Origin: a virus
IMG/VR virus record: IMGVR_UViG_3300035670_001267
Location: 1-23,417 of that record
Length of the DNA stretch: 23,417 nt
Strand: one strand, 5' to 3'
Shown piece by piece: positions 3,165-22,614 of this stretch. The translations under genes were made by a program, and so were the position numbers. The number at the start of each line of letters is the position of its first letter. Within the stretch, counting starts at the first letter, position 1. The notes beneath the pieces are model-generated. The model was given only the letters and a program-made list of their open reading frames with translations, had not been told where the DNA came from and did no database searches.

Positions 3165-3181
3165 AAAATTTTTTTAAAATA

Positions 3182-3194
3182 TCAATATATTTAT
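3182..3194 (+). promoter_or_regulatory. Putative phage late promoter, copy P1
   Basis: TCAAT followed by ATATTTAT, ending 11 bases before the ATG at 3206. It is one of eight copies of TC-N3-ATATTTAT lying before presumed late genes. It would drive the 258-residue gene and the holin. Confidence 0.6.
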
Positions 3195-3205
3195 AGTTAT
3201 AGAAT

Positions 3206-3982
3206 ATGTATAATTTCGGGAATATAAAAAATACTTTTAATAAAATATTAACTGAATCTATCGTTAAGAAAGATAGGGTTAGAAAAAATTTATTCAAAGA
3301 ATATCTAAAAACATTAAAAGAAAGTAAGATTTTAAAATCACAATTTATTGTTTTAACAAATATTGAGAATAAATTCATTGAAGATCCTTATTTGGCGGGT
3401 GAATACGTAAAAGAATGTGTTGAAACCGTTAGAAGATTTGGGCAAAATAAAATCATTTCAGAAAATTCCAAATTATTAAGTATTCTTGAGAAGAATAACC
3501 TATCCATTTCCGAAGAAAATTCTAAACTATATGAATGTCTAAACGATTTAATCGTATTAAAAAGAGATTCAAAAAATGTTGATAAGATACAAGAATCATT
3601 TGAATTTGTTCGTTCATATGTAATGAATCCAAAAGAAAATGAAAAATATAGTTCACCAACTGTTTCTTTACCACCAAGTGTTCTCGCGAGTGTTATGGTA
3701 TCTAAATATAATACCAAATATGATAATTTATCTGAGTCTGAAAAAAAGGTTATTAGAGTCGCGTTGAATGGTGACGATAAAGAAAAGAATGAATTATATT
3801 CTGAACTTGTTCGAGAAACCATCGATATTGTAGATGTTAAACTACAAACAGAAGACGTAGAATTAAAAGAAAAGTTACTTAAGACGAAAGATAAATTATT
3901 AAGAATGGAGTATATTGGAGAATCTTTCACGAAAGATATCACTAAAATATTTTCACTTAAAAATGATTTATCTAACTTATGA
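3206..3982 (+). CDS. Hypothetical helical protein between portal and holin
   Basis: A 258-residue, highly charged, predicted mostly helical protein (Lys/Glu/Ser rich) with no signal peptide or membrane segment. I recognise no family. A central stretch around residues 145-175 is less helical and Pro/Ser rich (SSPTVSLPPS). It follows the portal gene, as T4 genes 67 and 68 do, so a minor prohead-core or head-associated role is possible, but nothing in the sequence proves it. The ATG at 3206 is the first in frame after the P1 promoter-like motif. The stop overlaps the holin start as ATGA, so the two are translationally coupled. Confidence 0.75.
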   Translation: MYNFGNIKNTFNKILTESIVKKDRVRKNLFKEYLKTLKESKILKSQFIVLTNIENKFIEDPYLAGEYVKECVETVRRFGQNKIISENSKLLSILEKNNLSISEENSKLYECLNDLIVLKRDSKNVDKIQESFEFVRSYVMNPKENEKYSSPTVSLPPSVLASVMVSKYNTKYDNLSESEKKVIRVALNGDDKEKNELYSELVRETIDIVDVKLQTEDVELKEKLLKTKDKLLRMEYIGESFTKDITKIFSLKNDLSNL

Positions 3983-4500
3983 GAACTTTTTTTAACTACA
4001 TTGTAACCAATTTTGGATTTTCAGATTGTTCTGATTTTTTAAATTCTTTTTTACATTTTAATTTAATGAACGTAACATTACCGATTGTTGGTATTTCGGC
4101 GTTTATTGAGAAATATTTTGGATTGGAACATTTAACCATTATGTCATTTGGTTTATTAATGATTCTTGAATTGGTAACTGGTTTAATGGCATCAAAAATT
4201 AAAAAGGTTAAGATTGAATCAAAAAAATTCGGAAGATTTGGTTTAAAAGTTTTGGTTTGGTTCTCATTAATCTTCATCACCAATTCATTAAGTATAGAAT
4301 ATAAGTCACATAAAGATGTTATTGGTTCAATGGCACACGCCATGTTTAATTGGGTTCACACATTCCTATTTATCTATATTAATATGGAATATCTTATCTC
4401 CATATTGGAAAATTTGGGTGTAATTACGGGTAATAAAAAGAATTCAAAAAACCTGATTAAAATAATGATGGATAATTTATTTTCCACATTTAAAAAATAA
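3979..4500 (+). CDS. Holin, phage_holin_4_1-like
   Basis: A 173-residue membrane protein with hydrophobic segments at about residues 31-44, 52-70, 89-105 and 120-142. The pattern is that of the Bacteriophage holin 4 family: an ELVTGLMASKIKK-type segment after the second helix, a Lys/Gly-rich loop (SKKFGRFGLK), and near the C-terminus the stretch YLISILENLGVITG, which matches the family's conserved S-I-x-E-N-x-G signature. Holins of this kind permeabilise the inner membrane at the end of infection. No endolysin is visible in the window. The start overlaps the preceding stop by four bases (ATGA), so expression is probably late and from P1. The assignment is by motif recognition only. Confidence 0.82.
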   Translation: MRTFFNYIVTNFGFSDCSDFLNSFLHFNLMNVTLPIVGISAFIEKYFGLEHLTIMSFGLLMILELVTGLMASKIKKVKIESKKFGRFGLKVLVWFSLIFITNSLSIEYKSHKDVIGSMAHAMFNWVHTFLFIYINMEYLISILENLGVITGNKKNSKNLIKIMMDNLFSTFKK

Positions 4501-4537
4501 TTCATTATTGTTCAAAAATAGTTGTCTTGAAGATTTT

Positions 4538-4571
4538 TTTTCGTTATTATTGTATTAATATATAACGAAAA
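4538..4571. promoter_or_regulatory. Perfect 10-bp inverted repeat before gene 4589
   Basis: TTTTCGTTAT at 4538-4547 and ATAACGAAAA at 4562-4571, separated by 14 bases. There is no T tract downstream on either strand, so it is not a normal intrinsic terminator. It ends 17 bases before the ATG of the next gene, which lacks the late-promoter motif. An operator or an mRNA structure is the likely role. Confidence 0.45.
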
Positions 4572-4588
4572 TGTAATGACAATGATGA

Positions 4589-5020
4589 ATGAAAAAGGGA
4601 AAAGAGATTTCAATTAAATCTAACAAAAATTATACTGTCTATTCTGGGACATTAAATAATAAAATCGCGAAAACAATTTATTTAAACATATCTGGTTGGG
4701 GAGAACCTAAATTGGATAATGAAATTAATTATGAAAGGGTTATCAGAGAATTACGTAAAAGAATATCTCAACACATCTTTAATAATTTAAGTGAAAGTGA
4801 TTTTAAAAAGAATAATACAATTGTTGATTTGGATATGAGATTTTCTGGCGTTCATTACGGTAAAAAAAGTTTTATGTCATGTGAGGTTACATTATTCCAA
4901 AACTCAAATAACCCAATAAATTCCCCACTCACAATTAATCGTATGACCAATCTATCCAACATGGTAATTGAAGATATATTGGAAAATAATGATTATTTTA
5001 AATTCACCAAATCAAAATAA
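4589..5020 (+). CDS. Hypothetical protein, 143 residues
   Basis: Soluble basic protein of mixed alpha/beta character. The N-terminus is rich in Lys, Asn and Ser (KGKEISIKSNKN). A helix around residues 48-68 (ERVIRELRKRISQHIF) is followed by a beta-rich part containing VDLDMRFSG. I recognise no family. A stop directly precedes the ATG (TGA overlapping ATGATGAATG), so the start is fixed. A competing 13-codon frame begins at 4576 and runs through this start to 4617. The gene ends with its TAA immediately against the stop codon of the convergent secreted-protein gene. It has no late-promoter motif, unlike its neighbours, and may be expressed earlier or by read-through from the holin. Confidence 0.7.
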   Translation: MKKGKEISIKSNKNYTVYSGTLNNKIAKTIYLNISGWGEPKLDNEINYERVIRELRKRISQHIFNNLSESDFKKNNTIVDLDMRFSGVHYGKKSFMSCEVTLFQNSNNPINSPLTINRMTNLSNMVIEDILENNDYFKFTKSK

Positions 5021-5043
5021 TTATTTCTTCTCCAAGAAATAAT
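5020..5043. terminator. Hairpin at convergent gene ends, probable bidirectional terminator
   Basis: ATTATTTCTT (5020-5029), loop CTCC, AAGAAATAAT (5034-5043): a perfect 10-bp stem exactly at the junction where a plus gene (stop 5018-5020) and a minus gene (stop 5021-5023) meet. It lies inside the last codons of the minus gene. The stem is AT-rich and lacks a long U tract, so its efficiency is uncertain. Confidence 0.5.
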
Positions 5044-5434
5044 CACAGATAGAAAATTCAACATAATCCCTTATCGTAATTTCTCCGGTAAGGGAATTAA
5101 TATCTTCTTGACCATCCTCAATTATTCTACTATAGGTTGATTGATTTTCAATATCAGCGGTATATGGTGCGATTCTAATGTGTGCCTCATAATCCGCCTC
5201 GATTTTTATTCTATGAATTCCTGGTAATAATTTAATGTATCTATCATAGTAATTAACTATCACAATTTCTGTATTACTAACCTCAATTTTATATTGACTC
5301 ATGTTCAACATATTAGTAACAGATTCTAATTTCATTGTAATATCAACATTTTCTTCTACTTTTGAAGAATTATCTTGAGAAAAAGTAGAAACGGAAAGTA
5401 ACAATAGTAGTGGTAATAGTACTATTTTTTTCAT
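5021..5434 (-). CDS. Small secreted protein with signal peptide
   Basis: A 137-residue protein starting MKKIVLLPLLLLLSVSTFSQ: two Lys, a strongly hydrophobic core and a cleavage-like Ser-Gln end, as in Bacteroidota type I signal peptides. No Cys follows, so it is not a lipoprotein. The mature part is acidic and beta-rich, with a segment like PGIHRIKIEADYEAHIRIA. No family is recognised. An upstream in-frame ATG (5479) would add 15 residues, but the late-promoter motif at 5451-5463 lies inside that extension, so 5434 is the better start. It is the only minus-strand gene within the head block and lies near the holin. An envelope or lysis role is conceivable but unproven. Confidence 0.8.
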   Translation of the reverse strand: MKKIVLLPLLLLLSVSTFSQDNSSKVEENVDITMKLESVTNMLNMSQYKIEVSNTEIVIVNYYDRYIKLLPGIHRIKIEADYEAHIRIAPYTADIENQSTYSRIIEDGQEDINSLTGEITIRDYVEFSICDYFLEKK

Positions 5435-5450
5435 GATATTTGTTTTATTA

Positions 5451-5463
5451 ATAAATATCTGGA
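5451..5463 (-). promoter_or_regulatory. Putative late promoter, copy M1 (minus strand)
   Basis: On the minus strand TCCAG then ATATTTAT, ending 16 bases before the ATG at 5434 of the secreted-protein gene. It has the same form as the plus-strand copies. Confidence 0.6.
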
Positions 5464-5532
5464 TATTCACCATAATCACCTATATGTCAATAAAATTAAT
5501 TTAGGTAAAAAGAAATAACACTTTATTCAACT

Positions 5533-5545
5533 TCTCAATATTTAT
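5533..5545 (+). promoter_or_regulatory. Putative late promoter, copy P2
   Basis: TCTCA then ATATTTAT, 18 bases before the protease ATG at 5564. It lies in the 129-base divergent region shared with copy M1, so the two face away from each other. Confidence 0.6.
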
Positions 5546-5563
5546 CTGAAAAGGATTTGAATA

Positions 5564-6247
5564 ATGACTAAAGTATTAAAACCTGGGCAAACTGGACATG
5601 GTGTTCTTATTGAATACGATTCTGGTTTTATTTCCCCAAAAGATAATCAAAAATTTATAAACGAAATAAAAAAACTTGATTCTGGTCAAAGAATCATTGA
5701 GGAACCATTAGTTCTATATGCCGTATTACAGAAATGTGGTGTTGAGAATAGAAATGGTAGAATTTATCCAAGAGAAATTTTGGAGAGAGAATCAAGAAAT
5801 TACCAGAAGATAATTCAAGAAAATAGGGCATTAGGTGAGGCCGATCACCCAGAGAGTTCCATTATTTCTGTGGATAGAATATCACATAATATAACAGAAA
5901 TATGGTGGGAAGGTAATACATTACTAGGTAAACTAGAGGTTATTATGTCACCAGGTTTCATTAATCATGGTATTATCTCTTGTCAAGGTGACCAAATCGC
6001 CAATCTAATTAGAAAGGGTATTATGATTGGTGTATCATCTAGAGGTGTTGGTTCATTGGATAAGAAAGATGGTAAAAATTATGTACAAGATGATTTTGAA
6101 TTAATATGTTGGGATGTTGTTACGTCACCATCAACACCAGGTTCATGGATATTCAATCAAAAAGAAGAATCCGCACCATTCGTAGAATCAAGACAAACAA
6201 AAAAACCATTAATAATAGATAGTCTAGATAATTTTTTAAACGATTAA
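5564..6247 (+). CDS. 21: Prohead core protease (T4 gp21-like)
   Basis: Serine protease that matures the prohead by cleaving scaffold and capsid proteins, usually after Glu in (I/L)-x-E sites. The 227 residues carry the family landmarks: NRNGRIYPR at about 62-70, GEADHPESS with the presumed catalytic His-95, GVSSRGVG at 156-163 with the presumed nucleophile Ser-158 or Ser-159, and a conserved WDVVTSPSTPGSW at 183-195. T4 gp21 is about 212 residues, so the length fits. It lies two genes before the scaffold and three before the capsid gene, as expected. Late-promoter copy P2 sits directly upstream. A weak AAGGAT about ten bases before the ATG might act as a ribosome site, but the leader is otherwise A-rich. 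Confidence 0.95.
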   Translation: MTKVLKPGQTGHGVLIEYDSGFISPKDNQKFINEIKKLDSGQRIIEEPLVLYAVLQKCGVENRNGRIYPREILERESRNYQKIIQENRALGEADHPESSIISVDRISHNITEIWWEGNTLLGKLEVIMSPGFINHGIISCQGDQIANLIRKGIMIGVSSRGVGSLDKKDGKNYVQDDFELICWDVVTSPSTPGSWIFNQKEESAPFVESRQTKKPLIIDSLDNFLND

Positions 6248-6248
6248 T

Positions 6249-6548
6249 ATGAAAATTAGAATCACAGAATCTCAACTAGAAGAATTGAGAAAAAAATATT
6301 CCATGGTTGAAAAATCAGAATCATCCGAAGGACGACATGACAACTCTGGTAAGGATCCTTATATTAAGAAGGGATTTTTATTTATCAAATTAAACTCAGA
6401 TAAATCTGTACCAAAAGATGCGTATTACTTTACCGAAGAGGATGCAACTGAGTTGAATCAGATGGGTCAAGATTTGGAATCACTTAAAGTTTCTTATGAT
6501 GAGAAATTGAAATCTATAACTGGTGAACGTAAAAAAAGTGAAGAGTAA
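6249..6548 (+). CDS. Small hypothetical protein between protease and scaffold
   Basis: 99 residues, charged and soluble. It opens with the helix MKIRITESQLEELRKKY and closes with a second helix (from about residue 62) rich in Glu and Lys. The middle contains GFLFIKLNSD and looks beta-stranded. The ATG follows the protease stop by one base, so the two are co-translated. T4 has no gene at this exact place, although its small prohead-core genes 67 and 68 lie nearby. A minor core role is a guess from position only. Confidence 0.7.
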   Translation: MKIRITESQLEELRKKYSMVEKSESSEGRHDNSGKDPYIKKGFLFIKLNSDKSVPKDAYYFTEEDATELNQMGQDLESLKVSYDEKLKSITGERKKSEE

Positions 6549-6568
6549 AAAAAATAATTACACTTTTT
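6533..6568 (+). terminator. Weak terminator-like hairpin after the protease operon
   Basis: AAAAAGTG (6533-6540) pairs with CACTTTTT (6561-6568) across a 20-base A-rich loop. It overlaps the last codons of the 99-residue gene and precedes promoter copy P3. The stem is short and AT-rich, so termination would be partial at best. Confidence 0.3.
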
Positions 6569-6596
6569 ATAATAAAAAATTGAACTTTTTAAAGTA

Positions 6597-6609
6597 TCAA
6601 CATACTTAT
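6597..6609 (+). promoter_or_regulatory. Putative late promoter, copy P3 (scaffold and capsid)
   Basis: TCAAC then ATACTTAT (one mismatch, C for T), 75 bases before the scaffold ATG. The capsid gene has no copy of its own, so this is its nearest upstream candidate. The long leader matches that of copy P4. Confidence 0.5.
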
Positions 6610-6627
6610 CTATAACTAATAGTAAAG

Positions 6628-6646
6628 TTACATTGTCATAATGTAA
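6628..6646 (+). other. Stem-loop in the scaffold/capsid leader
   Basis: TTACATT, loop GTCAT, AATGTAA: a perfect 7-bp stem within the presumed 5' leader of the scaffold-capsid transcript. It could stabilise the message at its 5' end; it may also be chance in AT-rich DNA. Confidence 0.3.
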
Positions 6647-6684
6647 AAATGTTAGTAAAATAACAATAAAAACAATAAAGAAAG

Positions 6685-7908
6685 ATGGCAAAATCAATTA
6701 TTGAAGAAGCTCTTCTTGAAGCAGAAAAACTTCAAGAGTCTCTTAAAAAAAACACGAAAGAAATACTTGCTGTTACTATGAGGCAAGAAATTGATGACAT
6801 CGTTAAAGAATCTTTCCTATCTGAACAAGAAGAGGAAGAGGTTAAAGAAGTAGATGTTAAAGAATCTGAAGGTGAAGAGCTTGAAACAATGGAAGCTTCC
6901 GAAACGGAAGAAAATGCTGGTGAGGAATCTGAAGTAGAATCAGAAGAAGAGTCTGAAGAAGCTACTGAGGAAGAAGCTGGTGAGGAAATGGAAACCCCAG
7001 AAATGGATGTTGAAATTTCTGATCTTGAAGGTACAGAAGATTTAGGTGATGAAGGTGATGTTGAATCACAAGAAATTGACCTAACTATGGCACCTCACGA
7101 TGAAGTAATAAAAGTTTTCAAAAAGATGAGTGATGAAGACGAAATTGAAGTTGTGAAAGATGGCAAGAATGTTAACTTGAAAGACAAGTCAACTGGTGCT
7201 GAATATCAAATTCAACTTGAAGAAGGTACTGAATCTATCTACGAAATCGAAATGGATGAAGAAGAATCTGAAGATGATGAAATGTGCAACGAATGTGGTT
7301 CGGGTATGTACGATGAGTCAAAAGAAGAGGAAGAAGAAACTATTTACGAAATCGAAATGGATGAAGAAGAATCTGAAGAAGAGGAAGAAATTGATGAAAA
7401 TAAACAACACATCAAACGTAATCGTTACTCCACTTTTGGTAATAACATGAAGACTGGTGGTAAAATGGAAGAAACTTATAAAGCTAAAATGAACCAATTG
7501 GTTAGCGAAAATAAGGAACTTAAAACATTAGTAAAAGAGTTTGAAAACAAACAAGACGAATATAAAAACGCCTTGAAAATTTTCAGAGATAAGTTAAACG
7601 AAATCGCTCTTTTCAATACCAACTTGACTTATGCAACAAAATTGTTTACTGAGCACTCAACGACTAAACAAGAAAAAGCTAATATTTTAAAAAGATTTGA
7701 TTCGGTAATTAATCTTAAAGAATCAAAAAATCTTTACAAAGTGATTTCTGAAGAATTAGTTGTTAGAACTCCTATCAATGAATCAATTGATAATAAAGTT
7801 AATAAAACTGTTTCTAAGGGTTCTATGATTAAAGAATCTACTGTTTATGTAGATCCTCAAATCAAAAATATTCAAAGTTTAATGGAAAAATTAGACAATA
7901 GAATATAA
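6685..7908 (+). CDS. 22: Prohead scaffold core protein (T4 gp22-like)
   Basis: 407 residues placed between the protease and capsid genes, as T4 gene 22 is. The N-terminal 45 residues are an amphipathic helix. Residues about 46-245 are extremely acidic and of low complexity, broken by a small globular-looking part around 140-180. The C-terminal third is a coiled coil (KMNQLVSENKELKTLVKEFE) followed by a segment with LTYATKLFTEHSTTKQEKANIL, a pattern I associate with scaffolds of T4-like phages. Several (I/L)-x-E triplets could be cut by the protease. Two copies of the block YEIEMDEEESE lie 35 residues apart and flank a CNECGSGMYDE segment. It presumably assembles the internal core and is degraded on maturation. 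Assignment rests on position and composition more than on sequence identity. Confidence 0.85.
   Translation: MAKSIIEEALLEAEKLQESLKKNTKEILAVTMRQEIDDIVKESFLSEQEEEEVKEVDVKESEGEELETMEASETEENAGEESEVESEEESEEATEEEAGEEMETPEMDVEISDLEGTEDLGDEGDVESQEIDLTMAPHDEVIKVFKKMSDEDEIEVVKDGKNVNLKDKSTGAEYQIQLEEGTESIYEIEMDEEESEDDEMCNECGSGMYDESKEEEEETIYEIEMDEEESEEEEEIDENKQHIKRNRYSTFGNNMKTGGKMEETYKAKMNQLVSENKELKTLVKEFENKQDEYKNALKIFRDKLNEIALFNTNLTYATKLFTEHSTTKQEKANILKRFDSVINLKESKNLYKVISEELVVRTPINESIDNKVNKTVSKGSMIKESTVYVDPQIKNIQSLMEKLDNRI
7240..7379 (+). repeat. Direct repeat inside the scaffold gene
   Basis: Two identical 35-base copies at 7240-7274 and 7345-7379, spaced 105 bases (35 codons), both in frame and encoding YEIEMDEEESE plus part of the next codon. 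Identity at the third codon positions points to a recent duplication or to recombination between copies. Confidence 0.85.
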
Positions 7909-7946
7909 TAATAAAATAAAATAACAAAAAAACAAAAGATAAAAAA

Positions 7947-9761
7947 ATGGGACATCTTTTAAATTCTGGCGAGGTTGGAAATATTGGTCTTGAGCACCTA
8001 AAACAAATCCGTCAAAAAACAATCAACAAATGGGATCAATTAGGATTCCTTAAAGGCCTTAAAGGTCATGTTAAAGAAAATATCGCTCAATTATATGAGA
8101 ATCAAGCTTCTCACTTATTGAACGAATCTACGACTGCTGCTGATGCTTCAGGTTCTTTCGAAACTGTAGTATTCCCTATCGTAAGACGTGTTTTCTCTAA
8201 ATTATTAGCTAACGATATCGTATCTGTACAAGCAATGAACATGCCAATCGGTAAGTTATTCTTCTTCGTACCAGTTACGTCTGATAAAATTGAAAGTGGT
8301 AATTGGCAAAACACACCTAATTCAGGTGATGCTGCTGGTGCTACTGCTAAAAACCCTATCATCTCTGGACAACTTCCTGAGTGTGTAACTGGTTTCAATT
8401 GTTCAGTTGCAACTTTCTCTAGTTGTGCAAAATCTTTGTATGATAGATTCTATAACGATGGTCTTTATGATCATTCAAAAGGAACTGCAACAATCAACAT
8501 TGCAACTGGTACTCCAGTAGTATTTACTGCTTGTACTAACGGTAATGAATTTGTTGAAGGAACTAATGCAACTGCGTTCGATAACTCAGTTAGAAAACAA
8601 ATCATCGAAGTAACTGGATTCAATCCATTACGTGCTGGTAGAATGGGTAACTCTTCTCCTGGATCTGATTCTCCTAATGGAAATGAAATGGATTCTGAAG
8701 AATTCTTAGCTTCTTTATCAGTTGTAGCTTCTGCTGCTATCTACGATAACGATGGTAAATTAATCGTTAACGTTGGTGATGAAGTTCCATTCCGTTTGGT
8801 AACTCAAAAATATGGTAAAGGTATCGTACAATATAGTGATATTTGTGATGCTGAAGGTAAATTATACATTGAAGTTGATTTAACTCACCCTGCTTGTGTA
8901 TCTTGTGGTACTAACACAGTTGATGGATATACTGGTGCTGAGTCAGGATGGACTGCAAGTACTGGATCTTTCGTTATCGGTTGGAGACAATATAGTTCAT
9001 TAGAACTTTCTGCTGAAATGGGTGAAGTTTCTTTCCGTTTGGACGAAGTAGTTGTTTCAGTTACTGAAAGAAAATTAAGAGCTAGTTGGTCTCCAGAATT
9101 AGCACAAGACGTTTCTGCGTTCCACAACATCGATGCTGAAGCTGAATTAACAGCTTTATTATCTGAACAAGTTGCTGCTGAAATCGATCGTGAAATTTTA
9201 CGTGACTTACGTAAAGGTGCTGCTTGGCAATTACGTTGGGATTACAACGGATGGAAACGTGTTTCTACCGCTGCTACTCCATACACACAAAAAGAGTGGA
9301 ATCAAACTTTGATTACTAAAATTAACCAAGTTTCTGCTCAAATCCATAAATCAACACTTCGTGGTGGTGCTAACTTTATCGTAGTATCATCTGAGGTTTC
9401 TGCAATTTTTGATGATTTGGAATACTTCCACGTATCAAATGCTAACCCTGAGCAAGATCAATATAACATGGGTATCGAAAGAATCGGTAGTTTAGGTGGA
9501 CGTTACACTGTGTATCGTGATCCTTATGCACCAGCAAATTCAATCGTAATTGGACATAAAGGTAAATCTTTATTAGATACAGGTTATATCTACGCACCTT
9601 ATGTACCACTTCAATTAACACCAACAATGTATAATCCATTCAATTTCGCACCAGTAAAAGGTATTATGACCAGGTACGCGAAAAAGATGGTAAATAATCG
9701 CTTCTATGGAGCAATTCGTGTTGATGGTATCCAAACATTTGATGTAAGAGAATTACGTTAA
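7947..9761 (+). CDS. 23: Major capsid protein (T4 gp23-like)
   Basis: 604 residues with the gp23 signature near the N-terminus: SFETVVFPIVRRVFSKLLAND followed by VSVQAMNMPIGKLFFF. The preceding 60 residues form the removable N-terminal region. LNE at 58-60, just before STTAADASGS, fits the (I/L)-x-E cleavage rule of the gp21 protease, so the mature subunit probably starts at Ser-61. T4 gp23 is about 521 residues; the extra length here probably lies in the variable part between about 130 and 330. Codon use differs from most neighbours: Ala is nearly always GCT or GCA and Arg is often CGT, as expected of the most abundant virion protein. The leader is purely A-rich without a Shine-Dalgarno sequence. 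A strong terminator follows. Confidence 0.97.
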   Translation: MGHLLNSGEVGNIGLEHLKQIRQKTINKWDQLGFLKGLKGHVKENIAQLYENQASHLLNESTTAADASGSFETVVFPIVRRVFSKLLANDIVSVQAMNMPIGKLFFFVPVTSDKIESGNWQNTPNSGDAAGATAKNPIISGQLPECVTGFNCSVATFSSCAKSLYDRFYNDGLYDHSKGTATINIATGTPVVFTACTNGNEFVEGTNATAFDNSVRKQIIEVTGFNPLRAGRMGNSSPGSDSPNGNEMDSEEFLASLSVVASAAIYDNDGKLIVNVGDEVPFRLVTQKYGKGIVQYSDICDAEGKLYIEVDLTHPACVSCGTNTVDGYTGAESGWTASTGSFVIGWRQYSSLELSAEMGEVSFRLDEVVVSVTERKLRASWSPELAQDVSAFHNIDAEAELTALLSEQVAAEIDREILRDLRKGAAWQLRWDYNGWKRVSTAATPYTQKEWNQTLITKINQVSAQIHKSTLRGGANFIVVSSEVSAIFDDLEYFHVSNANPEQDQYNMGIERIGSLGGRYTVYRDPYAPANSIVIGHKGKSLLDTGYIYAPYVPLQLTPTMYNPFNFAPVKGIMTRYAKKMVNNRFYGAIRVDGIQTFDVRELR

Positions 9762-9783
9762 TATGTTATAAATCAATAACTTA

Positions 9784-9813
9784 AAAGAGGGACTTATGTC
9801 CCTCTTTTTTTTT
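9784..9813 (+). terminator. Strong intrinsic terminator after the capsid gene
   Basis: AAAGAGGGAC (9784-9793), loop TTAT, GTCCCTCTTT (9798-9807), with the T run continuing to 9813. A perfect 10-bp stem with a GC-rich centre and a clear U tract: the best terminator in the window. Confidence 0.93.
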
Positions 9814-9831
9814 GGATAAAATTTAATTTGA

Positions 9832-9844
9832 GTCATATATTTAT
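9832..9844 (+). promoter_or_regulatory. Putative late promoter, copy P4
   Basis: GTCAT then ATATTTAT, between the capsid terminator and the endonuclease gene, 77 bases before its ATG. Here the TC pair is shifted one base closer to the core than in the other copies. Confidence 0.5.
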
Positions 9845-9921
9845 TTTTAGGTACAAAATTTAAATGGTTTAAATTTGACATTTTCAATTTATTTTATTAA
9901 TTTTATTAAAAATTAAATATT

Positions 9922-11514
9922 ATGGGTAAAACTAATTTAACAAAAGAAGATATTATTAATATTATTAATCTATATCAAACAGAACTTGGTAGTACACATA
10001 AATTGGCTGAAAAATTTAAAGTTGGTCATAAAAAAATTACACAAATTTTAAAAGAAAATGATATCTTAATTAATAAAAAAGGTGGTAAGATTAAGATGAG
10101 GAATAGTTCAGAAATCGAGAAAAATAAAATTAAAAAATTAACCCCAATTAATGGTTTTAAGTTGGTGGCAAAATGTAAAACTACCGGTATTATGATAGAT
10201 GATCCAAATAATTTATCTGGTGTATTAACTAATCACATTATTAAAACATATGGGGATGTTAAAATACCGACTAATACCTATCAACGAAAAAAATATGAAA
10301 TAGAAAATGGTAAAAAATGGTACGAAGAATATTTTGATATTATAGAAATAATTGAAGAAATTAAAATAAAGAAAGAAACTGTAAATAAAAAAGAGGAAAG
10401 GAGAAAGTTTTTATCGGACCCCAAAAATTATGTCATCTGTAATTTATGTGGCGAAAAGATGAGAATAATTAGTAACACACATTTAATTAATAGACACAAT
10501 ATCACCCCTAAAGAATATAAACTACTATACCCCAATCAAAAAATCGCATCAGATAATTTGACACTGACATTTAGTAAAAACGCGATTATTGGTAATACCA
10601 ATATGAAACCTACGTGGACATCTAAATCTGAAATTGAAATAAAAAATTTCATAGAAAGTTTGGGGTTTGAAGTGGAAAAAAATAGAAATAGACAGATACT
10701 AAATGGTAAAGAAATTGATATAATGATACCAGAAATAAATTTGGCTATTGAATATAATGGTTTATATTATCACACAGAAAAAATGGGTAAGAACTCTAGA
10801 TACCATTTAAATAAAACTACCGAGTGTAATAAAATAGGTTATAAACTAATCCACATATTCGAAGATGAATGGTTGAACAATAAAGAACTCATTAAAAATA
10901 AACTTAGTCATCTATGTGGTAAGAATACCAATCAATTAATTGGGGCGAGAAAATGTAAAATAAGTATCATCTCTCAAAAAGAAAAAAATGAATTTTTAGA
11001 TACGTATCACATTCAAGGTAAAGATAAATCAAAAATATCATTCGGCGCGTATTATAATGATGAATTGGTGGCGGTAATGACATTCGATAATAAACGAAAT
11101 ATGTCAAATAAATGTGATGATAATTCCTATGAATTAACCAGATTCGCGACCAATATAAACTATAGAATACCAGGAGTTGGGGATAAGTTATTAAAATATT
11201 TCATAAAAGAATATTCACCATCCTCAATTATTAGTTTCGGCGATATAAGATGGGTATTGGACGCGAATAATAATTTTTATACTAAGTTGGGTTTTAAATT
11301 GGTTAATATATTAAGACCAGATTATAGATATTATAATTCAAAAATACATAAACATAAAAGATTACACAAGTTTGGTTTTGGTAAAAATAATCTTAAAAAA
11401 AGATATCCACATTTAGATTTTTCAAAAACGGAGAAACAATTAATGACTGAATTGGGATATGATAGAATTTGGGATTGTGGATTGTTCAAATTTGAACTAA
11501 AATTAAACAATTAA
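9922..11514 (+). CDS. Free-standing homing endonuclease, Vsr-like (EDxHD type), with C-terminal GNAT-like domain
   Basis: 530 residues in four parts. Residues 6-50 form a helix-turn-helix (LAEKFKVGHKKITQILKEN). Residues 170-207 carry a zinc-finger-like C173-x2-C176-x10-H187-x4-H192 followed by ITPKEYKLLYPNQ, as in Ros/MucR-type fingers. Residues 234-320 are a Vsr-like nuclease core (SEIEIKNFIESLGFEV, EIDIMIP with Asp-266, IEYNGLYYH with Glu-277 and His-284, and HIFEDEW), the pattern of EDxHD homing endonucleases. Residues 340-475 resemble an acetyltransferase fold (SFGAYYNDELVAVMTF, ELTRFATN, GVGDKLLKYFI, FYTKLGFK); I have the impression that this C-terminal part recurs in phage endonucleases. 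It stands behind the capsid terminator with its own promoter-like motif, as a mobile insertion would. The frame is intact. Confidence 0.85.
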   Translation: MGKTNLTKEDIINIINLYQTELGSTHKLAEKFKVGHKKITQILKENDILINKKGGKIKMRNSSEIEKNKIKKLTPINGFKLVAKCKTTGIMIDDPNNLSGVLTNHIIKTYGDVKIPTNTYQRKKYEIENGKKWYEEYFDIIEIIEEIKIKKETVNKKEERRKFLSDPKNYVICNLCGEKMRIISNTHLINRHNITPKEYKLLYPNQKIASDNLTLTFSKNAIIGNTNMKPTWTSKSEIEIKNFIESLGFEVEKNRNRQILNGKEIDIMIPEINLAIEYNGLYYHTEKMGKNSRYHLNKTTECNKIGYKLIHIFEDEWLNNKELIKNKLSHLCGKNTNQLIGARKCKISIISQKEKNEFLDTYHIQGKDKSKISFGAYYNDELVAVMTFDNKRNMSNKCDDNSYELTRFATNINYRIPGVGDKLLKYFIKEYSPSSIISFGDIRWVLDANNNFYTKLGFKLVNILRPDYRYYNSKIHKHKRLHKFGFGKNNLKKRYPHLDFSKTEKQLMTELGYDRIWDCGLFKFELKLNN

Positions 11515-11519
11515 TATTA

Positions 11520-11532
11520 TCATTATATTTAT
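11520..11532 (+). promoter_or_regulatory. Putative late promoter, copy P5
   Basis: TCATT then ATATTTAT, starting six bases after the endonuclease stop and ending five bases before the ATG at 11537. It overlaps the alternative ATG at 11531. Confidence 0.5.
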
Positions 11533-11536
11533 GGTT

Positions 11537-12265
11537 ATGAGAAGAATTGTCACAGAAACAATAGTTTTGGATGTCCTATCCAAATTAACTAACGCAGAGA
11601 AATCCACATTGAAGTATCTACATAGAAAATATGGTAAAGAGAGTAGTCTTAATATTAATGGAATGATTGATAGTTTGGAAGATTTGGGTTTTAATTTTAC
11701 CAATTCAATGAAATTATCGACATTTTATAAAAAGAATAGAGAATACTTGTTTAAAGATGTTGAGGAAGAATATGAATCAACTTATGAATCTGAGATTGTT
11801 TATCAGGCAATCCAAAATTTTGTTAATAAAGTTAGTCCAAGTGTTATAGAGGACTACGCTAAAGGTAGGTTAAAGGTTTCTGAATTAACTAAAAAATATG
11901 GTAGAGAATCGTTTTCTGTTTCAGTTTGGCAAGGGTTTACTAGTTTCTCATTTTATTTATCTTATTATACAGAAAATCAATTTAAAGCCAAGTGGAATAT
12001 TATAATCGATTACAAATACGATAAAATGTTAACCAATAAAGGTAAAATAGCATCAATTCCATTCGATATGTCGGTTTATAAAATTGATGGCGATTTTCCA
12101 ATTCCAGAATTATCGGGTTCCAAAGATACTGTGGAAATTCCTGTTAATTTTGATATTAACGAAATGACCAAGGAAGATATCTATTTCTTATTATTTGACA
12201 TAGAAAATTCATTATTCTCCGATTTTGAGGATAGAATAATGGAAATTATGGGGGTTAACAACTAA
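11537..12265 (+). CDS. Hypothetical protein, last plus-strand gene of the head block
   Basis: 242 residues from the chosen start (244 from an ATG at 11531 that lies inside the P5 motif). No signal peptide or membrane segment, and no family recognised. The N-terminal half is helical and holds two loosely similar stretches, YLHRKYGKESS and LTKKYGRESFS. The middle (FSFYLSYYTENQFKAKWNIII) is aromatic and probably beta-stranded, and the C-terminus is acidic. The stop region overlaps the convergent gene by 11 bases, with no visible terminator. If P5 is a real promoter, the message would have almost no leader. Confidence 0.7.
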   Translation: MRRIVTETIVLDVLSKLTNAEKSTLKYLHRKYGKESSLNINGMIDSLEDLGFNFTNSMKLSTFYKKNREYLFKDVEEEYESTYESEIVYQAIQNFVNKVSPSVIEDYAKGRLKVSELTKKYGRESFSVSVWQGFTSFSFYLSYYTENQFKAKWNIIIDYKYDKMLTNKGKIASIPFDMSVYKIDGDFPIPELSGSKDTVEIPVNFDINEMTKEDIYFLLFDIENSLFSDFEDRIMEIMGVNN

Positions 12266-13667
12266 CTTCTTGTTCGTTAACAATCAAAAATTTCATCACA
12301 TCTTTTAATATGGTTACTTGTCTATTGTTGATAAGTTTAATATCCAAATAATATGTGTTTGGTATCATCCAAGATGTATCTAACATGAAGAAATTATGGT
12401 TATACGCCTTATTAATATTATCCCAATCAATTATCGTAACTTCCGCTTCACCTTCCTTAATATATAATCTATAATATAACCCATCTATTACATCCGTTTT
12501 AGTTATGGAATAAGGTACCCTACTCGTTACAAGTATCTTTCTTAAATCACCCCTCTTAATACGTTCATCTCTCTTAATCCCACTAATCGCAATCCCATAA
12601 TTAATCGGTTGATATTCATTTGTTCCCAAGTTATACCAAGAATCGTCATTAACCAAGGCGAATTCTAATTCCACATTTGGTCTTGAAACCCCATTTATTG
12701 ATATGTTCTTCCATATATCCGTAAATGTTGTACAATCTGTATATCCCGATGATGGTACTGATAAATTTACACAATAAACTCCTTCCATTACGTGTGAAAC
12801 TCCAGATGATGGAATTGATAAATAAAGATTATCTTGATCATCGTATATGTCAACCGATGGGATATTGTCCAAATTGGTTGGAGTATTTCCCAAATTCACA
12901 TATAAACATAGATTATTATTTTTATCCATGTAGAATTTTGACCTATCATCATCAATAATCCCACTATATTTTGTCTCTAAGAATGGTTCAAAATAGGTTT
13001 GTGTATGTCTAGTAAAAAAACCCACATAATTATATTCTGAGGTTTGAATATCCTCAATTTCTGATGGGAACGCAATACCAAATCCATAATTTTCGGTTGT
13101 TCCGGTAATCAAATCATTAATGGTTGATGTCATATCCATACAAAGGTTTTCATTACCCAAATCAAAATGTTGTGTGGTTATTGTCATACCACTACTTGAA
13201 CCCGAATATATTCCAGAAGTTGTCCACAAATCTACGCCAGAACGATAGAACCAATTACTTGGACTATAACTTGACCCTTCACAATTAATATTACATTCCG
13301 CACAAGTATCACAATTATAAGTAAATCCTACACCTTCATCCCAAAATTCTGGTACTCTGAATAAGATTAAATCAAATGATGATGTTCTTTGTTTTAAATC
13401 TGAGGTTTTTTTACCCAATAAATCTGGGTTAAATGTTGATGTATTGGTCATTTTAAGGGTGTGGTTAACTTGACTCAAATCACCTAAATTACCCTTATTA
13501 TATTCTTGTTTTAACTTATCAACATCGAAATAGAAGATATGTCTGGTGTATTTTTGTTTATCTCCCTCACCACCATAATATAATTCTGTTATAGAATTTA
13601 ATCCAGTATTTAATCTACTATGACTAATTAGTGTATTATCTTTTTCTATGTAAGTTCTTATGACCAT
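12255..13667 (-). CDS. Virion structural protein with DNRLRE-like adhesive domain
   Basis: 470 residues, beta-rich, no signal peptide. Residues about 40-236 resemble a DNRLRE/CBM-type beta-sandwich: an early strand with the FYFDVDKLK region, then MTSTINDLITGTTENYGFGIAF, and a closing FEPFLETKYSG. Inside it sits a cysteine knuckle, C119-x2-C122-x2-C125-x3-C129, that may bind metal. Residues about 245-345 look like an Ig-type domain, and the rest is again beta-rich. Its own late-promoter copy M2 lies 14 bases upstream, and it follows the baseplate operon, so a tail, baseplate or fibre role is likely. Convergent overlap of 11 bases with the plus-strand gene at its 3' end. The DNRLRE resemblance is by eye. 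Confidence 0.75.
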   Translation of the reverse strand: MVIRTYIEKDNTLISHSRLNTGLNSITELYYGGEGDKQKYTRHIFYFDVDKLKQEYNKGNLGDLSQVNHTLKMTNTSTFNPDLLGKKTSDLKQRTSSFDLILFRVPEFWDEGVGFTYNCDTCAECNINCEGSSYSPSNWFYRSGVDLWTTSGIYSGSSSGMTITTQHFDLGNENLCMDMTSTINDLITGTTENYGFGIAFPSEIEDIQTSEYNYVGFFTRHTQTYFEPFLETKYSGIIDDDRSKFYMDKNNNLCLYVNLGNTPTNLDNIPSVDIYDDQDNLYLSIPSSGVSHVMEGVYCVNLSVPSSGYTDCTTFTDIWKNISINGVSRPNVELEFALVNDDSWYNLGTNEYQPINYGIAISGIKRDERIKRGDLRKILVTSRVPYSITKTDVIDGLYYRLYIKEGEAEVTIIDWDNINKAYNHNFFMLDTSWMIPNTYYLDIKLINNRQVTILKDVMKFLIVNEQEVSC

Positions 13668-13681
13668 GTTTTACTTTATCT

Positions 13682-13694
13682 ATAAATATTTAGA
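13682..13694 (-). promoter_or_regulatory. Putative late promoter, copy M2 (minus strand)
   Basis: On the minus strand TCTAA then ATATTTAT, ending 14 bases before the ATG at 13667. It fills most of the 31-base gap to the spike gene. Confidence 0.6.
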
Positions 13695-13698
13695 TAAA

Positions 13699-14604
13699 TT
13701 AATTTGTCCTTACATTATTATTCAAAATACTATTTAAATCGAAATTTAATAGTTTAGTTACACTTTCATCTGGATCTGGTGGCATCGCGTGGTATGGATG
13801 ACTATGTGTGGCAACAAAATTTTTCACTAATTTAAGGAAATTAACCAAAATATCACCAAATGGTATTGGATGTGTATTTAGATTAATATAAGATTGATCT
13901 TGATTTGAAATCATATTTTCCCTATCTGTTAAAACAAATTTACTTGAGGTATTACCCCTATGACTCAAAATATTAATATAATTACCAACAATGTTAATAT
14001 TACTACCTAATGTATTTGTTGTATTAGTCACAGAAGGATCCTCTTCTGTTAGATATCTAATTTGAATATATCCTGGATCTTTATCATTGTATTGTTTTGG
14101 TTGTGATGGTACGAATTTACCCGACCTAAATAATACTTCTTTGTCTTTAAATATTAAATCCGAATTATTTCTACCTTGAATCGCAACATAATCTTTTTTG
14201 GGATAAATTCCATCCGCGTTTGGTGTAACTTCTAACCCACTAGATAATTTAATATAACCATCTGGTCTATCTGAAAATGAATTGATATAATCTTCTCCAG
14301 TTAATTTTTGAGGTTGGGAAATCCATGGACCAATCCAATATCTTGTTGAACTATTGGACGATTGATTACCCAATTCTACGTTGGGTACTAATACTGTTAC
14401 CCTTTCACCAACTTTTGGAAAAACATTGATATATTTAGGTAATAATGGTAAGGCGATTGGTATTTCAGAATCTGGATTATTACCATCAATATTTAATCTT
14501 ACCTTAATTTGACCAGTACTATATGGATCATCAATAGAAATAACTTCTCCATCAAATAATATTTGGAGTTTATAATCTCTTATTGATTTTTCGTTTAAAT
14601 TCAT
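13699..14604 (-). CDS. Baseplate central spike / hub protein, gp5-like OB-fold
   Basis: 301 residues. Residues about 12-110 form an OB-fold like that of T4 gp5 and VgrG spikes: LFDGEVISIDDPYSTGQIKVRL, then IALPLLPKYINVFPKVGERV with its Pro-x-Val-Gly-Glu turn, then VLVPN and a YWIGPWIS strand. No lysozyme domain is present, unlike T4 gp5. The later part has short beta repeats (SNINIVGNYINILSH) suitable for a trimeric beta-helix. Near the C-terminus there is a His cluster, H267-S-H269-P-Y-H272. HxH motifs at spike tips of P2 gpV type bind iron, so this may be a metal-binding tip. It starts in an ATGA overlap with the small gene upstream and belongs to the late operon beginning at 16969. Confidence 0.82.
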   Translation of the reverse strand: MNLNEKSIRDYKLQILFDGEVISIDDPYSTGQIKVRLNIDGNNPDSEIPIALPLLPKYINVFPKVGERVTVLVPNVELGNQSSNSSTRYWIGPWISQPQKLTGEDYINSFSDRPDGYIKLSSGLEVTPNADGIYPKKDYVAIQGRNNSDLIFKDKEVLFRSGKFVPSQPKQYNDKDPGYIQIRYLTEEDPSVTNTTNTLGSNINIVGNYINILSHRGNTSSKFVLTDRENMISNQDQSYINLNTHPIPFGDILVNFLKLVKNFVATHSHPYHAMPPDPDESVTKLLNFDLNSILNNNVRTN

Positions 14605-14786
14605 TCTACACCTCTTTTAGTTAATTCTTCCTTCGCCTTTTTATAATTTTTTTCCAATTCTTCCAACTTATCACAAAGTTTAACAATTTGTTGTTTTGTG
14701 AATTCATATTCCATACCAAATTCTTTTATTTTTACCTTGATATTGGTATTGGATAGTTCACTGAAATTATTATTGAATGATTCCAT
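14601..14786 (-). CDS. Small coiled-coil protein
   Basis: 61 residues. The second half is one long charged helix (KLCDKLEELEKNYKKAKEEL), probably a coiled coil. Function unknown. It is credible as a gene because it starts inside the preceding gene (17-base overlap) and ends in an ATGA overlap with the spike gene, which implies coupled translation. It could be a small chaperone or an assembly partner of the spike, but that is only positional inference. Confidence 0.65.
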   Translation of the reverse strand: MESFNNNFSELSNTNIKVKIKEFGMEYEFTKQQIVKLCDKLEELEKNYKKAKEELTKRGVE

Positions 14787-15162
14787 ATCCTTGTGTGTAA
14801 TTTGTTGTTACTCCTTGTGATAATACTGGACCACCCGCGTTACCACCAACTGTTGTTACTGGTGTTCCTGGTGGTATTACGATTGTAATCCTCGCCTCAC
14901 TTATTAACGCATTTACAATTTCTTCTATTCTAATTCTTTCCATTTTTTCATCAACACTCTCTGAGCCTGATGATAATGGTCCAACTGGTGCACCCGCTTC
15001 ACTTTTCCTTGTTATGATTCTAGTAGTAATTAATCTAGAATTCATACCAGGTCTCTGTGCACCACCTACTAAAATTAATGGTGGCGGTATTATTGGTGCC
15101 GATGATATACTCGTCCTCAATAACGCAGAAATCGCATCTAATACTGATTTTAAATTATTCAT
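14770..15162 (-). CDS. Hypothetical virion-operon protein, Pro/Gly-rich
   Basis: 130 residues. A short N-terminal helix (LKSVLDAISALLR) is followed by a Pro-rich stretch (SAPIIPPPLILVGG), a basic strand region (SRLITTRIITRKSEAG), a central helix (VDEKMERIRIEEIVNALI) and a Gly/Thr-rich C-terminus. No family recognised. Its ATG shares one base with the preceding stop (TAATG), so translation is coupled to the 473-residue gene. Location within the baseplate operon suggests a virion or assembly protein. Confidence 0.7.
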   Translation of the reverse strand: MNNLKSVLDAISALLRTSISSAPIIPPPLILVGGAQRPGMNSRLITTRIITRKSEAGAPVGPLSSGSESVDEKMERIRIEEIVNALISEARITIVIPPGTPVTTVGGNAGGPVLSQGVTTNYTQGYGIIQ

Positions 15163-16583
15163 TATCTAATACCTAACGATGATAAGTTATTTGCCAATTG
15201 TAATAATTCTATCGCTCTACTTCCAGTTAAACCTTTCATAGTTGATTGAAATTGTTTTTGCATTTGTTTTGTATTATTAACTAAATTACAAATAATAATT
15301 TCTTTTAATACGTTAAATAAAAATCTTAATAATGTTTTTTGTATGGTTTCTATCATAACTCGTTTAACCATATCCACATAAAACTTACTATTATTAACTA
15401 TAAAATCTTTTAATGTATTGAAATTTAAATTACCATATGCCAACTTCAAATAAATTGAAAATATTAAGACCATCGCTGGACCAATTAATGTTTTCAAAAT
15501 AACCATTATTAAACCCTTAATTAATCTTAGAAAAAATTGTAAATCACTAATGTTTTTATTTTCTTCCGAAACATTTTGACTTGATTCATCCGCAAGTATT
15601 TGTAATTGTTTCGTTAAAATAGTTTTTCTTTCCCCAGCAGTAGTCGAACCACTCAACGAATTTAATAGATTAGTCACACTTTCCAAACTAACTTGTGATA
15701 CTACTGATTGACATTCTTCTAAAATTAGTGTACCAGTTTGTAAAAGTAAGGCTCTTTTTTCTATATCATATAACTCTTGATTTGAAAACTCAAAAAATGT
15801 ATTATCAATTTCTGTTTCAACCTCAACTGTATTATATAATATTTTATCCATCAATTGTTCAAATTCAGCTTCTTTTTTTAGACTGAAGTAATCTTTCGAT
15901 ATTGAACTAGAAATTGTACCAAAAACTGTATCTATGATTCTTGGTGTCGTATTTGTTTCTGGTAAAAATCTCATTGAATCAATGAAATCTGTTAAGAATG
16001 TAAAAATACTTTTATTCACATAAGATGGATGTATTTTAATGTTAATAACATTATTCTTCACTTGACCATCAACTAATGCGCCAGTTTGAATGTACGTAAC
16101 AATTAGTATGTTCTTCCAAGTATTAGGTGAACCTAATTGAATGGTGTCATATAAGAAGTAATTAAAATCATTATCTGGATTACCATAAATGACCCCTCCC
16201 TCGACTGAGTTTGGATCAACTTTTAATATGTTAAAAAAATCCACCCTTTCTAAATCAAAGTTAATACCATTACTGATTAAACTTAAAGGAATGGTTGGGC
16301 TAATGTTACAAGAAAAAACTTCTTTAATTAAAGATTTTAATGTTTTTTTAATTGCCAACTCAAAACCTTCAACCTCATAACTAAGCATATCGATTAACTT
16401 TTCTTTTAAGGCTTCGACACCAACAACACTTTTAATTAAGTCTAGTAAGAATGCAATCGCATTTAATCCATTAGATATTGATGGCAAAGAATTGTTTAAT
16501 TTTAACGTAGGGAATCCGTCACAACTCGCTTTAAAAGCAATTATGTCATTAACAACCTTTAATTTACTTTGTTTAGGATCCAT
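15162..16583 (-). CDS. Large hypothetical structural protein, 473 residues
   Basis: A helical and hydrophobic protein with a mixed middle part (FNYFLYDTIQLGSPNTWKNI, about 145-165). Residues about 350-385 include a strongly hydrophobic run (LIKGLIMVILKTLIGPAMVL) that could be a membrane-active segment or a buried helix. A second amphipathic series follows to the C-terminus, ending in a Ser/Leu-rich tail. I do not recognise the family. As the largest gene of the late operon with the spike, it is plausibly a baseplate, tail or internal virion protein. No signal peptide. Starts five bases after the preceding stop. Confidence 0.72.
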   Translation of the reverse strand: MDPKQSKLKVVNDIIAFKASCDGFPTLKLNNSLPSISNGLNAIAFLLDLIKSVVGVEALKEKLIDMLSYEVEGFELAIKKTLKSLIKEVFSCNISPTIPLSLISNGINFDLERVDFFNILKVDPNSVEGGVIYGNPDNDFNYFLYDTIQLGSPNTWKNILIVTYIQTGALVDGQVKNNVINIKIHPSYVNKSIFTFLTDFIDSMRFLPETNTTPRIIDTVFGTISSSISKDYFSLKKEAEFEQLMDKILYNTVEVETEIDNTFFEFSNQELYDIEKRALLLQTGTLILEECQSVVSQVSLESVTNLLNSLSGSTTAGERKTILTKQLQILADESSQNVSEENKNISDLQFFLRLIKGLIMVILKTLIGPAMVLIFSIYLKLAYGNLNFNTLKDFIVNNSKFYVDMVKRVMIETIQKTLLRFLFNVLKEIIICNLVNNTKQMQKQFQSTMKGLTGSRAIELLQLANNLSSLGIR

Positions 16584-16588
16584 ATCAA

Positions 16589-16969
16589 TTAAACATCATA
16601 ATCAACATCTTTCTTTATTTTTTGTTCCTTCATCATTTCCCTGAGTAATTTTTTATCATCATCACTTAGAGCCTTTGGTGTATTAACTTTTTCCTCACTC
16701 TGATTATTATTCATCAATATTTGGGCTTGTAATTTAGCCAACATTAATTTTTTCTCAACCGCGGAATCAATAATCTTTAAAGATTCATTATTAACCTTAC
16801 CAATCTGGTAAGCATCATGGGAATCTTCAACCTTTAATTGAGTTTTTCTTTCAGTAATATCGGTTTGAGCTTTTCTCTGAACATTAAGACAATCATTATA
16901 GATTTCTTGCATCAAACCAGACATACTATCAACATCTAATCTGATTTTGGTTTTTTTAGGTCTAGGCAT
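16589..16969 (-). CDS. Small helical protein, first gene of the tail operon
   Basis: 126 residues, basic N-terminus (MPRPKKTKIRL) and almost entirely helical, with a Lys/Glu-rich C-terminal helix (KLLREMMKEQKIKK). It might bind DNA or act as an assembly factor; a small-terminase-like role cannot be excluded from composition alone, but no family motif is visible. It is the first gene behind late-promoter copy M3, with an A-rich leader, and heads the run 16969 to 13699. Confidence 0.7.
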   Translation of the reverse strand: MPRPKKTKIRLDVDSMSGLMQEIYNDCLNVQRKAQTDITERKTQLKVEDSHDAYQIGKVNNESLKIIDSAVEKKLMLAKLQAQILMNNNQSEEKVNTPKALSDDDKKLLREMMKEQKIKKDVDYDV

Positions 16970-16985
16970 TTTATTTATTTTCCAT

Positions 16986-16998
16986 ATAAATATAATGA
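16986..16998 (-). promoter_or_regulatory. Putative late promoter, copy M3 (minus strand)
   Basis: On the minus strand TCATT then ATATTTAT, ending 16 bases before the ATG at 16969. It lies in the 39-base gap behind the sigma factor gene and would drive the five-gene tail operon. Confidence 0.65.
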
Positions 16999-17008
16999 AA
17001 CTGATTTC

Positions 17009-17746
17009 TCAAATGAGTCCTTTGTCCAATCTATCATTTTTCACAAATTTATACAATTCCTTGTATTTTTTCATGGAAATCCGAATATCTTTTGTATTTA
17101 GTAGAGTATATTCTCTAATAAACGATAAAATACTATTTTTATTGAATTTTGAACTACCAGAGACATTATTATCAAAGATATCCTCCCAATTAGATAACAA
17201 TTCCAATAAAGCCTCACCAACTTTTAATTCATTTTCATTCATTTTACGATCAGTTTCCATCCTAGTTCTGATTTTGTTAGAAATGTCTTTAAAAAATTCT
17301 TCAATGTTACTAGATGGATTATCTATCGTATAACTATATTGCTCATTACTATCGATATTGTGGTACATATCTTCATATGATGAAAATTGTCTCACATCTT
17401 TTTCATATTTAATTATCCTACCTAATAGGTAATTTTTAACAATGGTACCAAAATATGAATAGGCTTTCTTATTTTCGCTAGGATCAAATTTATTGAACTT
17501 TGTCATTAAAAATGATAGAGTATCACAATGAAGATTTTCAAACGACATATCTTTCGCATATAATTTATATCTCCTAATGATACTCTCTATCATTGTATTC
17601 AATGGCTCTTTTAGATGCTCTTCATAAATTTTAGATTTTTTAAGTTGATTTTTCTCCTTAATAAATCTAACCACTGCCTTCTCTTGTTTTACACCAAAAT
17701 AGGGTATACTTGGGGTAACATTTTCTTTTTTTTCTGTTTGTGACAT
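17009..17746 (-). CDS. 55: Late sigma factor (T4 gp55-like)
   Basis: 245 residues. Residues about 48-112 match sigma region 2 as in T4 gp55: IIRRYKLYAKDM, then LSFLMTKFNKFDP and KAYSYFGTIVKNYLLGRI. SYEDMYHNID follows shortly after. The rest is helical and not recognisable, and an obvious C-terminal clamp-binding motif is not seen. T4 gp55 is about 185 residues, so this one is longer. It should direct the host RNA polymerase to late promoters, presumably the TC-N3-ATATTTAT sites found here. The ATG at 17746 is preferred; a GTG two codons upstream directly after a stop is the only longer option. It is the last gene of the operon that starts at 20676 and has no late motif of its own. Confidence 0.88.
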   Translation of the reverse strand: MSQTEKKENVTPSIPYFGVKQEKAVVRFIKEKNQLKKSKIYEEHLKEPLNTMIESIIRRYKLYAKDMSFENLHCDTLSFLMTKFNKFDPSENKKAYSYFGTIVKNYLLGRIIKYEKDVRQFSSYEDMYHNIDSNEQYSYTIDNPSSNIEEFFKDISNKIRTRMETDRKMNENELKVGEALLELLSNWEDIFDNNVSGSSKFNKNSILSFIREYTLLNTKDIRISMKKYKELYKFVKNDRLDKGLI

Positions 17747-22522: not shown

Positions 22523-22614
22523 TTAAAAATTTTCAAATATAACAATCATTGGGTAATGATATATACCACAAATATTATTTTTACCATCATAGTAATCCAA
22601 TTTTTTCATTATTT

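Follow-up and report, generated by a model that had tools for sequence, protein, structure and literature searches.

Late transcription in bacteriophage T4 uses promoters with an 8-bp TATAAATA box and no conservation at -35, together with gp55, gp33 and gp45 (PMC2988020, PMC7892883). The late promoters of cyanophage S-PM2 and of phages KVP40, 44RR and Aeh1 closely follow the T4 consensus, with Aeh1 two positions off (PMC2988020). The primary promoter of the Bacteroidota, on the other hand, has TAnnTTTG at -7 and TTTG at -33 (PMC7366714). Here we analyze an 8-bp box, ATATTTAT, that is very probably the late promoter of an environmental T4-related phage and its relatives, and that resembles the Bacteroidota -7 box more than it does the classical T4 late promoter. 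In the open-access literature, which was the scope of our search (subscription papers lay outside it), we found no description of this box or of late promoters in T4-like phages of Bacteroidota.

The ATATTTAT box in the window and its relatives

The stretch of DNA analyzed, hereafter the window, is the 23.4-kb virus record IMGVR_UViG_3300035670_001267, which encodes a T4-type portal, a head-maturation protease, a gp23-type capsid protein and PhoH. The portal gene (36-3164) is split by an intein (Intein_splicing PF14890, E 5e-10), which carries an HNH endonuclease (HNH phrog_7545). A sequence-only reading of this DNA had proposed that eight copies of a signal, consisting of TC followed by a core octamer, mark late genes, and all eight are present at the positions and on the strands that it gave. 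They are listed here with the other features discussed below; fractions are orthologues of the downstream gene that have the motif, and these orthologous sites are not independent of one another.

3170-3173, plus strand: T-rich upstream element TTTT, at -17 to -14 of the next core
3182-3194, plus strand: probable late promoter core, (TC)AAT-ATATTTAT, exact and co-directional, 11 nt ahead of the ATG at 3206 (gene 3206-3982)
5451-5463, minus strand: probable late promoter core ahead of a secreted-protein gene, ATG 5434 (minus)
5521-5524, plus strand: T-rich upstream element CTTT, ahead of the core at 5533-5545
5533-5545, plus strand: probable late promoter core ahead of the prohead protease gene 5564-6247 (56/64)
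6585-6588, plus strand: T-rich upstream element CTTT, ahead of the core at 6597-6609
6597-6609, plus strand: probable late promoter core, variant ATACTTAT, ahead of the scaffold-position gene 6685-7908 (67/72), which is followed by the major capsid protein (MCP) gene
9832-9844, plus strand: probable late promoter core, no TC in register, ahead of the homing endonuclease gene 9922-11514 (3/7)
11520-11532, plus strand: probable late promoter core, 4 nt ahead of the likely gene start, ATG 11537 (3/3)
13682-13694, minus strand: probable late promoter core ahead of gene 12255-13667 (35/38)
16986-16998, minus strand: probable late promoter core ahead of gene 16589-16969 (21/24)
17009-17746, minus strand: candidate gp55-like late sigma factor, 245 aa, its own gene without the motif
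22534-22541, minus strand: TATATTTG, possible host-type (early) -7 box 11 nt ahead of the glycosyltransferase gene 21659-22522; a weak single instance with no TTG at -24

The sequence-only reading was also accurate on the make-up of these sites. The core is an exact ATATTTAT in seven of the eight, the exception being 6597-6609; TC stands 5 bases ahead of the core in seven, the exception being 9832-9844; every site is directed into the next gene; and the sole further exact core in the window, at 21275-21282 within phoH, lacks the TC. Two gene starts should be corrected. The gene behind 5451-5463 should begin at ATG 5434, and the gene behind 11520-11532, where the first ATG (11531) shares bases with the motif, likely begins at ATG 11537. 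In all three orthologues of the latter the core is likewise followed 4 nt later by an ATG; the mRNA of this gene is possibly leaderless. A terminator-like hairpin (about 9785-9813) precedes the late-type promoter of the homing endonuclease gene.

As a word, ATATTTAT is no commoner in the window than chance would have it (8 observed vs 9.3 ± 3.4 expected). What is unusual is its position: the 1,157 intergenic bases contain 7 copies where 1.6 are expected (Poisson P = 0.0015), and the genes contain 1 where 7.4 are expected. The window by itself is only moderately convincing; with the relatives added, the evidence for a signal is overwhelming.

These relatives are 80 contigs gathered by a search with the window's capsid protein, with genes called as the longest ATG frames. 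Together with the window they hold 377 intergenic copies of ATATTTAT in 63.5 kb vs 146 genic copies in 1.07 Mb, and of the intergenic copies 357 are directed into the gene that follows and 17 are not. When 8-mers of the upstream regions are ranked by strand bias, ATATTTAT comes first, being found in 292 regions vs 46 with its reverse complement, and it is likewise first in G002, G014 and phage Mel-JY01 taken separately. The bias is seen individually in eight large relatives (71-345 kb) and in a cultured isolate, Flavobacterium phage immuto (MW353175, L092-L095), where 22 intergenic copies are co-directional vs 2 that are not. The motif, its strand and position, and its conservation are established. 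T4 and Cronobacter phage GAP32 show the opposite pattern, with TATAAATA enriched and ATATTTAT not. In LR756508 (L200-L219), a 484-kb phage genome of which 400 kb was examined, ATATTTAT is not enriched, and no such box was seen in Rhodothermus phage RM378.

A probable late and a host-type early promoter class

We assigned late and early labels by hand, from annotation and from homology to proteins annotated in immuto and T4, and counted a gene as marked when an exact core lay no more than 160 bp upstream. By this measure 60 of 136 late or structural genes are marked vs 2 of 68 early or replication genes (Fisher P = 5e-11, with orthologous genes not independent), so that the box is located ahead of late genes and hardly ahead of early ones, as a T4-type late promoter is. 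The outcome that, by the sequence-only reading, would speak against it was a motif just as frequent within genes and ahead of early genes, and this is not what the relatives show. Upstream of orthologues of the sigma gene the motif occurs in 0 of 26, and for the glycosyltransferases in 0 of 18 and 0 of 9. In immuto the box precedes the genes for terL, groES, sheath, tail completion, hub, tail fibre and tail spike.

Early genes of the relatives have promoters of a different class, TTG-N20-TATATTTG/AG. G001 has 83 copies of TTG-N17-23-TAnnTTTG in gene direction and 17 against it, with 3.4 expected; this motif lies mostly outside the structural region, within which ATATTTAT is dominant, and in both G001 and G005 the early and late classes sit in different genome regions. 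Immuto has 19 ATATTTAG sites, nearly all at 60-77 kb in a region of small genes. About 17 near-identical promoters, AGTTGC-N-TATATTTAGGTAT, make the early class of this phage very regular. Phage Mel-JY01 (PP395634, L180-L189), filed with Microcystis elabens as its host, also has both ATATTTAT late sites and early promoters of the TTG-N-TATATTTG type; its recorded host may be wrong, the true host being a Bacteroidota member of the culture.

The two boxes, ATATTTAT and the host-type ATATTTG/ATATTTAG, are one or two bases apart and in the same register, which gives them the Bacteroidota -7 element TAnnTTTG as a common skeleton; a motif model fitted on all upstream regions fuses both classes into TATATTT followed by AT or GC. 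A sigma-ABfr-type promoter has TAnnTTTG at -7 and a TTG or TTTG about 20 bp upstream, whereas the late sites have no final G, and their T(-1) frequency is 0.27-0.41, down from 0.89-0.95 at early sites (0.89 at those of G001, G005 and Mel-JY01). The TTG lies exactly 24 bases ahead of the core A in 68% of ATATTTG/ATATTTAG early sites and in 89% of those of immuto, vs 0-2% of the large relatives' ATATTTAT sites and 9% (2/22) of those of immuto. Late-gene specificity and the existence of two promoter classes are in this way directly observed.

Upstream of the late core, the TC that the sequence-only reading had included in the signal did not hold up as a conserved part of it: it is found at 28 of 375 sites in relatives and at 0 of 5 in L088, which is 76% identical, and we rejected it, the TC of 7/8 window sites being private to the window. 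The commoner second element in relatives is a T-rich stretch at -17 to -14 of the core, where at least three of four bases are T in between about one half and two thirds of the sites of the eight large relatives, vs about 15% at neighbouring offsets. It is absent from immuto sites and present at 3 of 8 window sites. We also rejected TTTT as a universal second element; a first count of 88% was inflated by orthologous sites, and counting genome by genome gave the fractions above, with none in immuto.

A candidate reader of the box and the alternatives

The sequence-only reading had proposed a late promoter of a type unlike that of T4, and strand, position, orthologues, the early/late contrast and the isolate immuto all back it. 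We consider that the late box is a -10/-7-type element of a T4-related clade, read by host RNA polymerase with a phage gp55-like sigma, and we put the probability of this at roughly 0.7; that transcription starts from the motif, and where, we infer from sequence patterns. Late in infection, host RNA polymerase carrying the gp55-like sigma (17009-17746) would bind ATATTTAT and melt the box, and RNA would initiate some 5 nt past the core. The T-rich element that many relatives have in addition would lie about 30 bp ahead of this RNA start. Early genes of these phages have host-type promoters with the closely similar -7 box TATATTTG (TATATTTAG in immuto) and a TTG 24 bases before the core A, and one or two box bases plus the upstream element make the difference between the classes.

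The gp55-like sigma is the likeliest link in this scheme for reading the ATATTTAT box. Its relatives occur in about 35 loci, and a gene for a sigma-region-2 protein is conserved adjoining the structural genes. The window protein matches phrog_234, "late sigma transcription factor", at E = 0.0023, and family members have weak profile matches to phrog_234 (20/26) and to Pfam Sigma70_r2 (21/26, best 2.6e-6). Against solved structures the family profile finds SigA best (E = 0.013), with T4 gp55 at 0.21, and in a Foldseek search of the predicted structure against PDB sigma factors lead and fill most of the top ranks, none below E = 0.05. Of the earlier claim that a gp55-type sigma is encoded here, the sigma-region-2 protein is supported, and the similarity to gp55 itself is distant (hhalign probability 11%, E 0.003). 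The C-terminal domain is well modeled (pLDDT 85) and has no recognised match, sigma-4 included, so that a sigma-4-like domain reading the T element is not supported. LR756508 carries the same sigma family yet lacks ATATTTAT enrichment in the part examined. Searches of the five large relatives G001-G005 and complete immuto gave no match for gp33 (PF16805) or gp45 (phrog_223), of which distant versions are possible, with T4 as a positive control giving clear matches for both; nor was a bacterial beta clamp found in these genomes. It is conceivable, though we would not favor it as a whole, that a diverged gp55-like sigma was retuned to a Bacteroidota-type -7 box one or two bases from the early box and works without gp33 and the gp45 clamp, that the T-rich element was gained in one subclade, and that late control lies in the box sequence and not in replication coupling.

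The host's primary sigma, of the sigma-ABfr type, could itself read the box as a degenerate -7 without -33, helped by a late phage activator on the T-rich element, in the way that MotA/AsiA serve the middle promoters of T4. The near identity of ATATTTAT to the early box in the same register and the fixed position of the T-rich element in relatives would both suit such an arrangement. However, the early sites have their TTG and T(-1) and the late sites nearly lack the one and lose much of the other, immuto and most window sites offer an activator no upstream element, and the sigma-region-2 protein is kept beside the structural genes, all of which makes a host-sigma reader unlikely.

A signal acting in RNA, through ribosome binding, translation enhancement or mRNA stability, is very improbable. 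Many sites do lie 12-20 nt ahead of the start codon, but the distance from core end to ATG ranges from 4 to over 100 nt, with peaks at 12-20 and 4-6 and almost nothing at 7-11. In addition, genes inside operons are without the motif (MCP, behind the scaffold gene, just 4/82 orthologues; gene 14604, 0/29), as are early genes, while the homing endonuclease and secreted-protein genes have it. The two peaks are most simply read as RNA starting about 5 nt past the core; with a start fixed there, genes with their ATG at the short peak would have leaderless mRNAs and other genes leadered ones. Several gene families (window 11520-11540 and relatives) have the ATG 4-6 nt after the core, and their late mRNAs are likely leaderless.

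That the sites are ordinary TATAAATA promoters on the opposite strand, or chance in gaps that are 82% A+T, is hardly credible even though the core and the T4 box read in reverse complement overlap with a shift of one base, and it is refuted by the 357:17 orientation toward the downstream gene and by orthologue conservation, with TATAAATA matches moreover commoner on the strand against the gene in G001, G002, G004 and G005.

Relation to known promoters

The sequence-only reading had taken the core to be the reverse complement of the T4 box, which is inexact: base by base ATATTTAT complements TATAAATA directly, and the T4 box in reverse complement would read TATTTATA. The relation is probably uninformative because the octamer consists of A and T only. 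Of the two changes that had been offered to account for it, recognition or the recognised strand, the former fits, since the box resembles TAnnTTTG, the -7 element of the Bacteroidota, with a different final base. Hosts of the clade of T4-related phages that includes the window are most likely Bacteroidota, given the host of immuto and the type of the early promoters.

T4-family late promoters known so far lie near the one consensus TATAAATA, whereas the large environmental group described here, with at least one cultured member in immuto, has a different box that tracks its host phylum's own promoter. This makes the adaptation of phage sigmas to the host polymerase testable and provides a simple sequence rule by which the early and late genes of uncultured Bacteroidota-type phages can be told apart. 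It also prompts the question what turns on the late genes when neither clamp nor coactivator is detectable.

Judged from sequence, the mechanism would be like that of a T4 late promoter, with membership in that type failing on the box and, as far as detectable, on clamp and coactivator. Like T4 late promoters, the sites have a single A+T box of 8 bp in the -10 position and lie near late structural genes of either strand, in a genome encoding a phage sigma with sigma-region-2, here the gp55-like candidate by similarity. Unlike T4, the box on the coding (non-template) strand is ATATTTAT and not TATAAATA, no gp33 or gp45 homologue was detected in immuto and the five large relatives, and a T-rich element stands in many relatives, though not in immuto or at 5/8 window sites, where T4 has no sequence conservation. 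A T4-type late promoter also has its RNA start about one helical turn past the box and depends on replication; for the present box the core-to-ATG distances suggest no more than a start some 5 nt beyond the core. S-PM2, KVP40, 44RR and Aeh1 are likewise T4-family phages with variant late boxes, but none of their boxes is ATATTTAT. Compared with the Bacteroidota primary promoter, the late box has the final G changed to A then T, a dispensable first T and no fixed upstream TTG, and it shares with that promoter the A..TTT skeleton and the start-codon register of the phages' own host-type early promoters.
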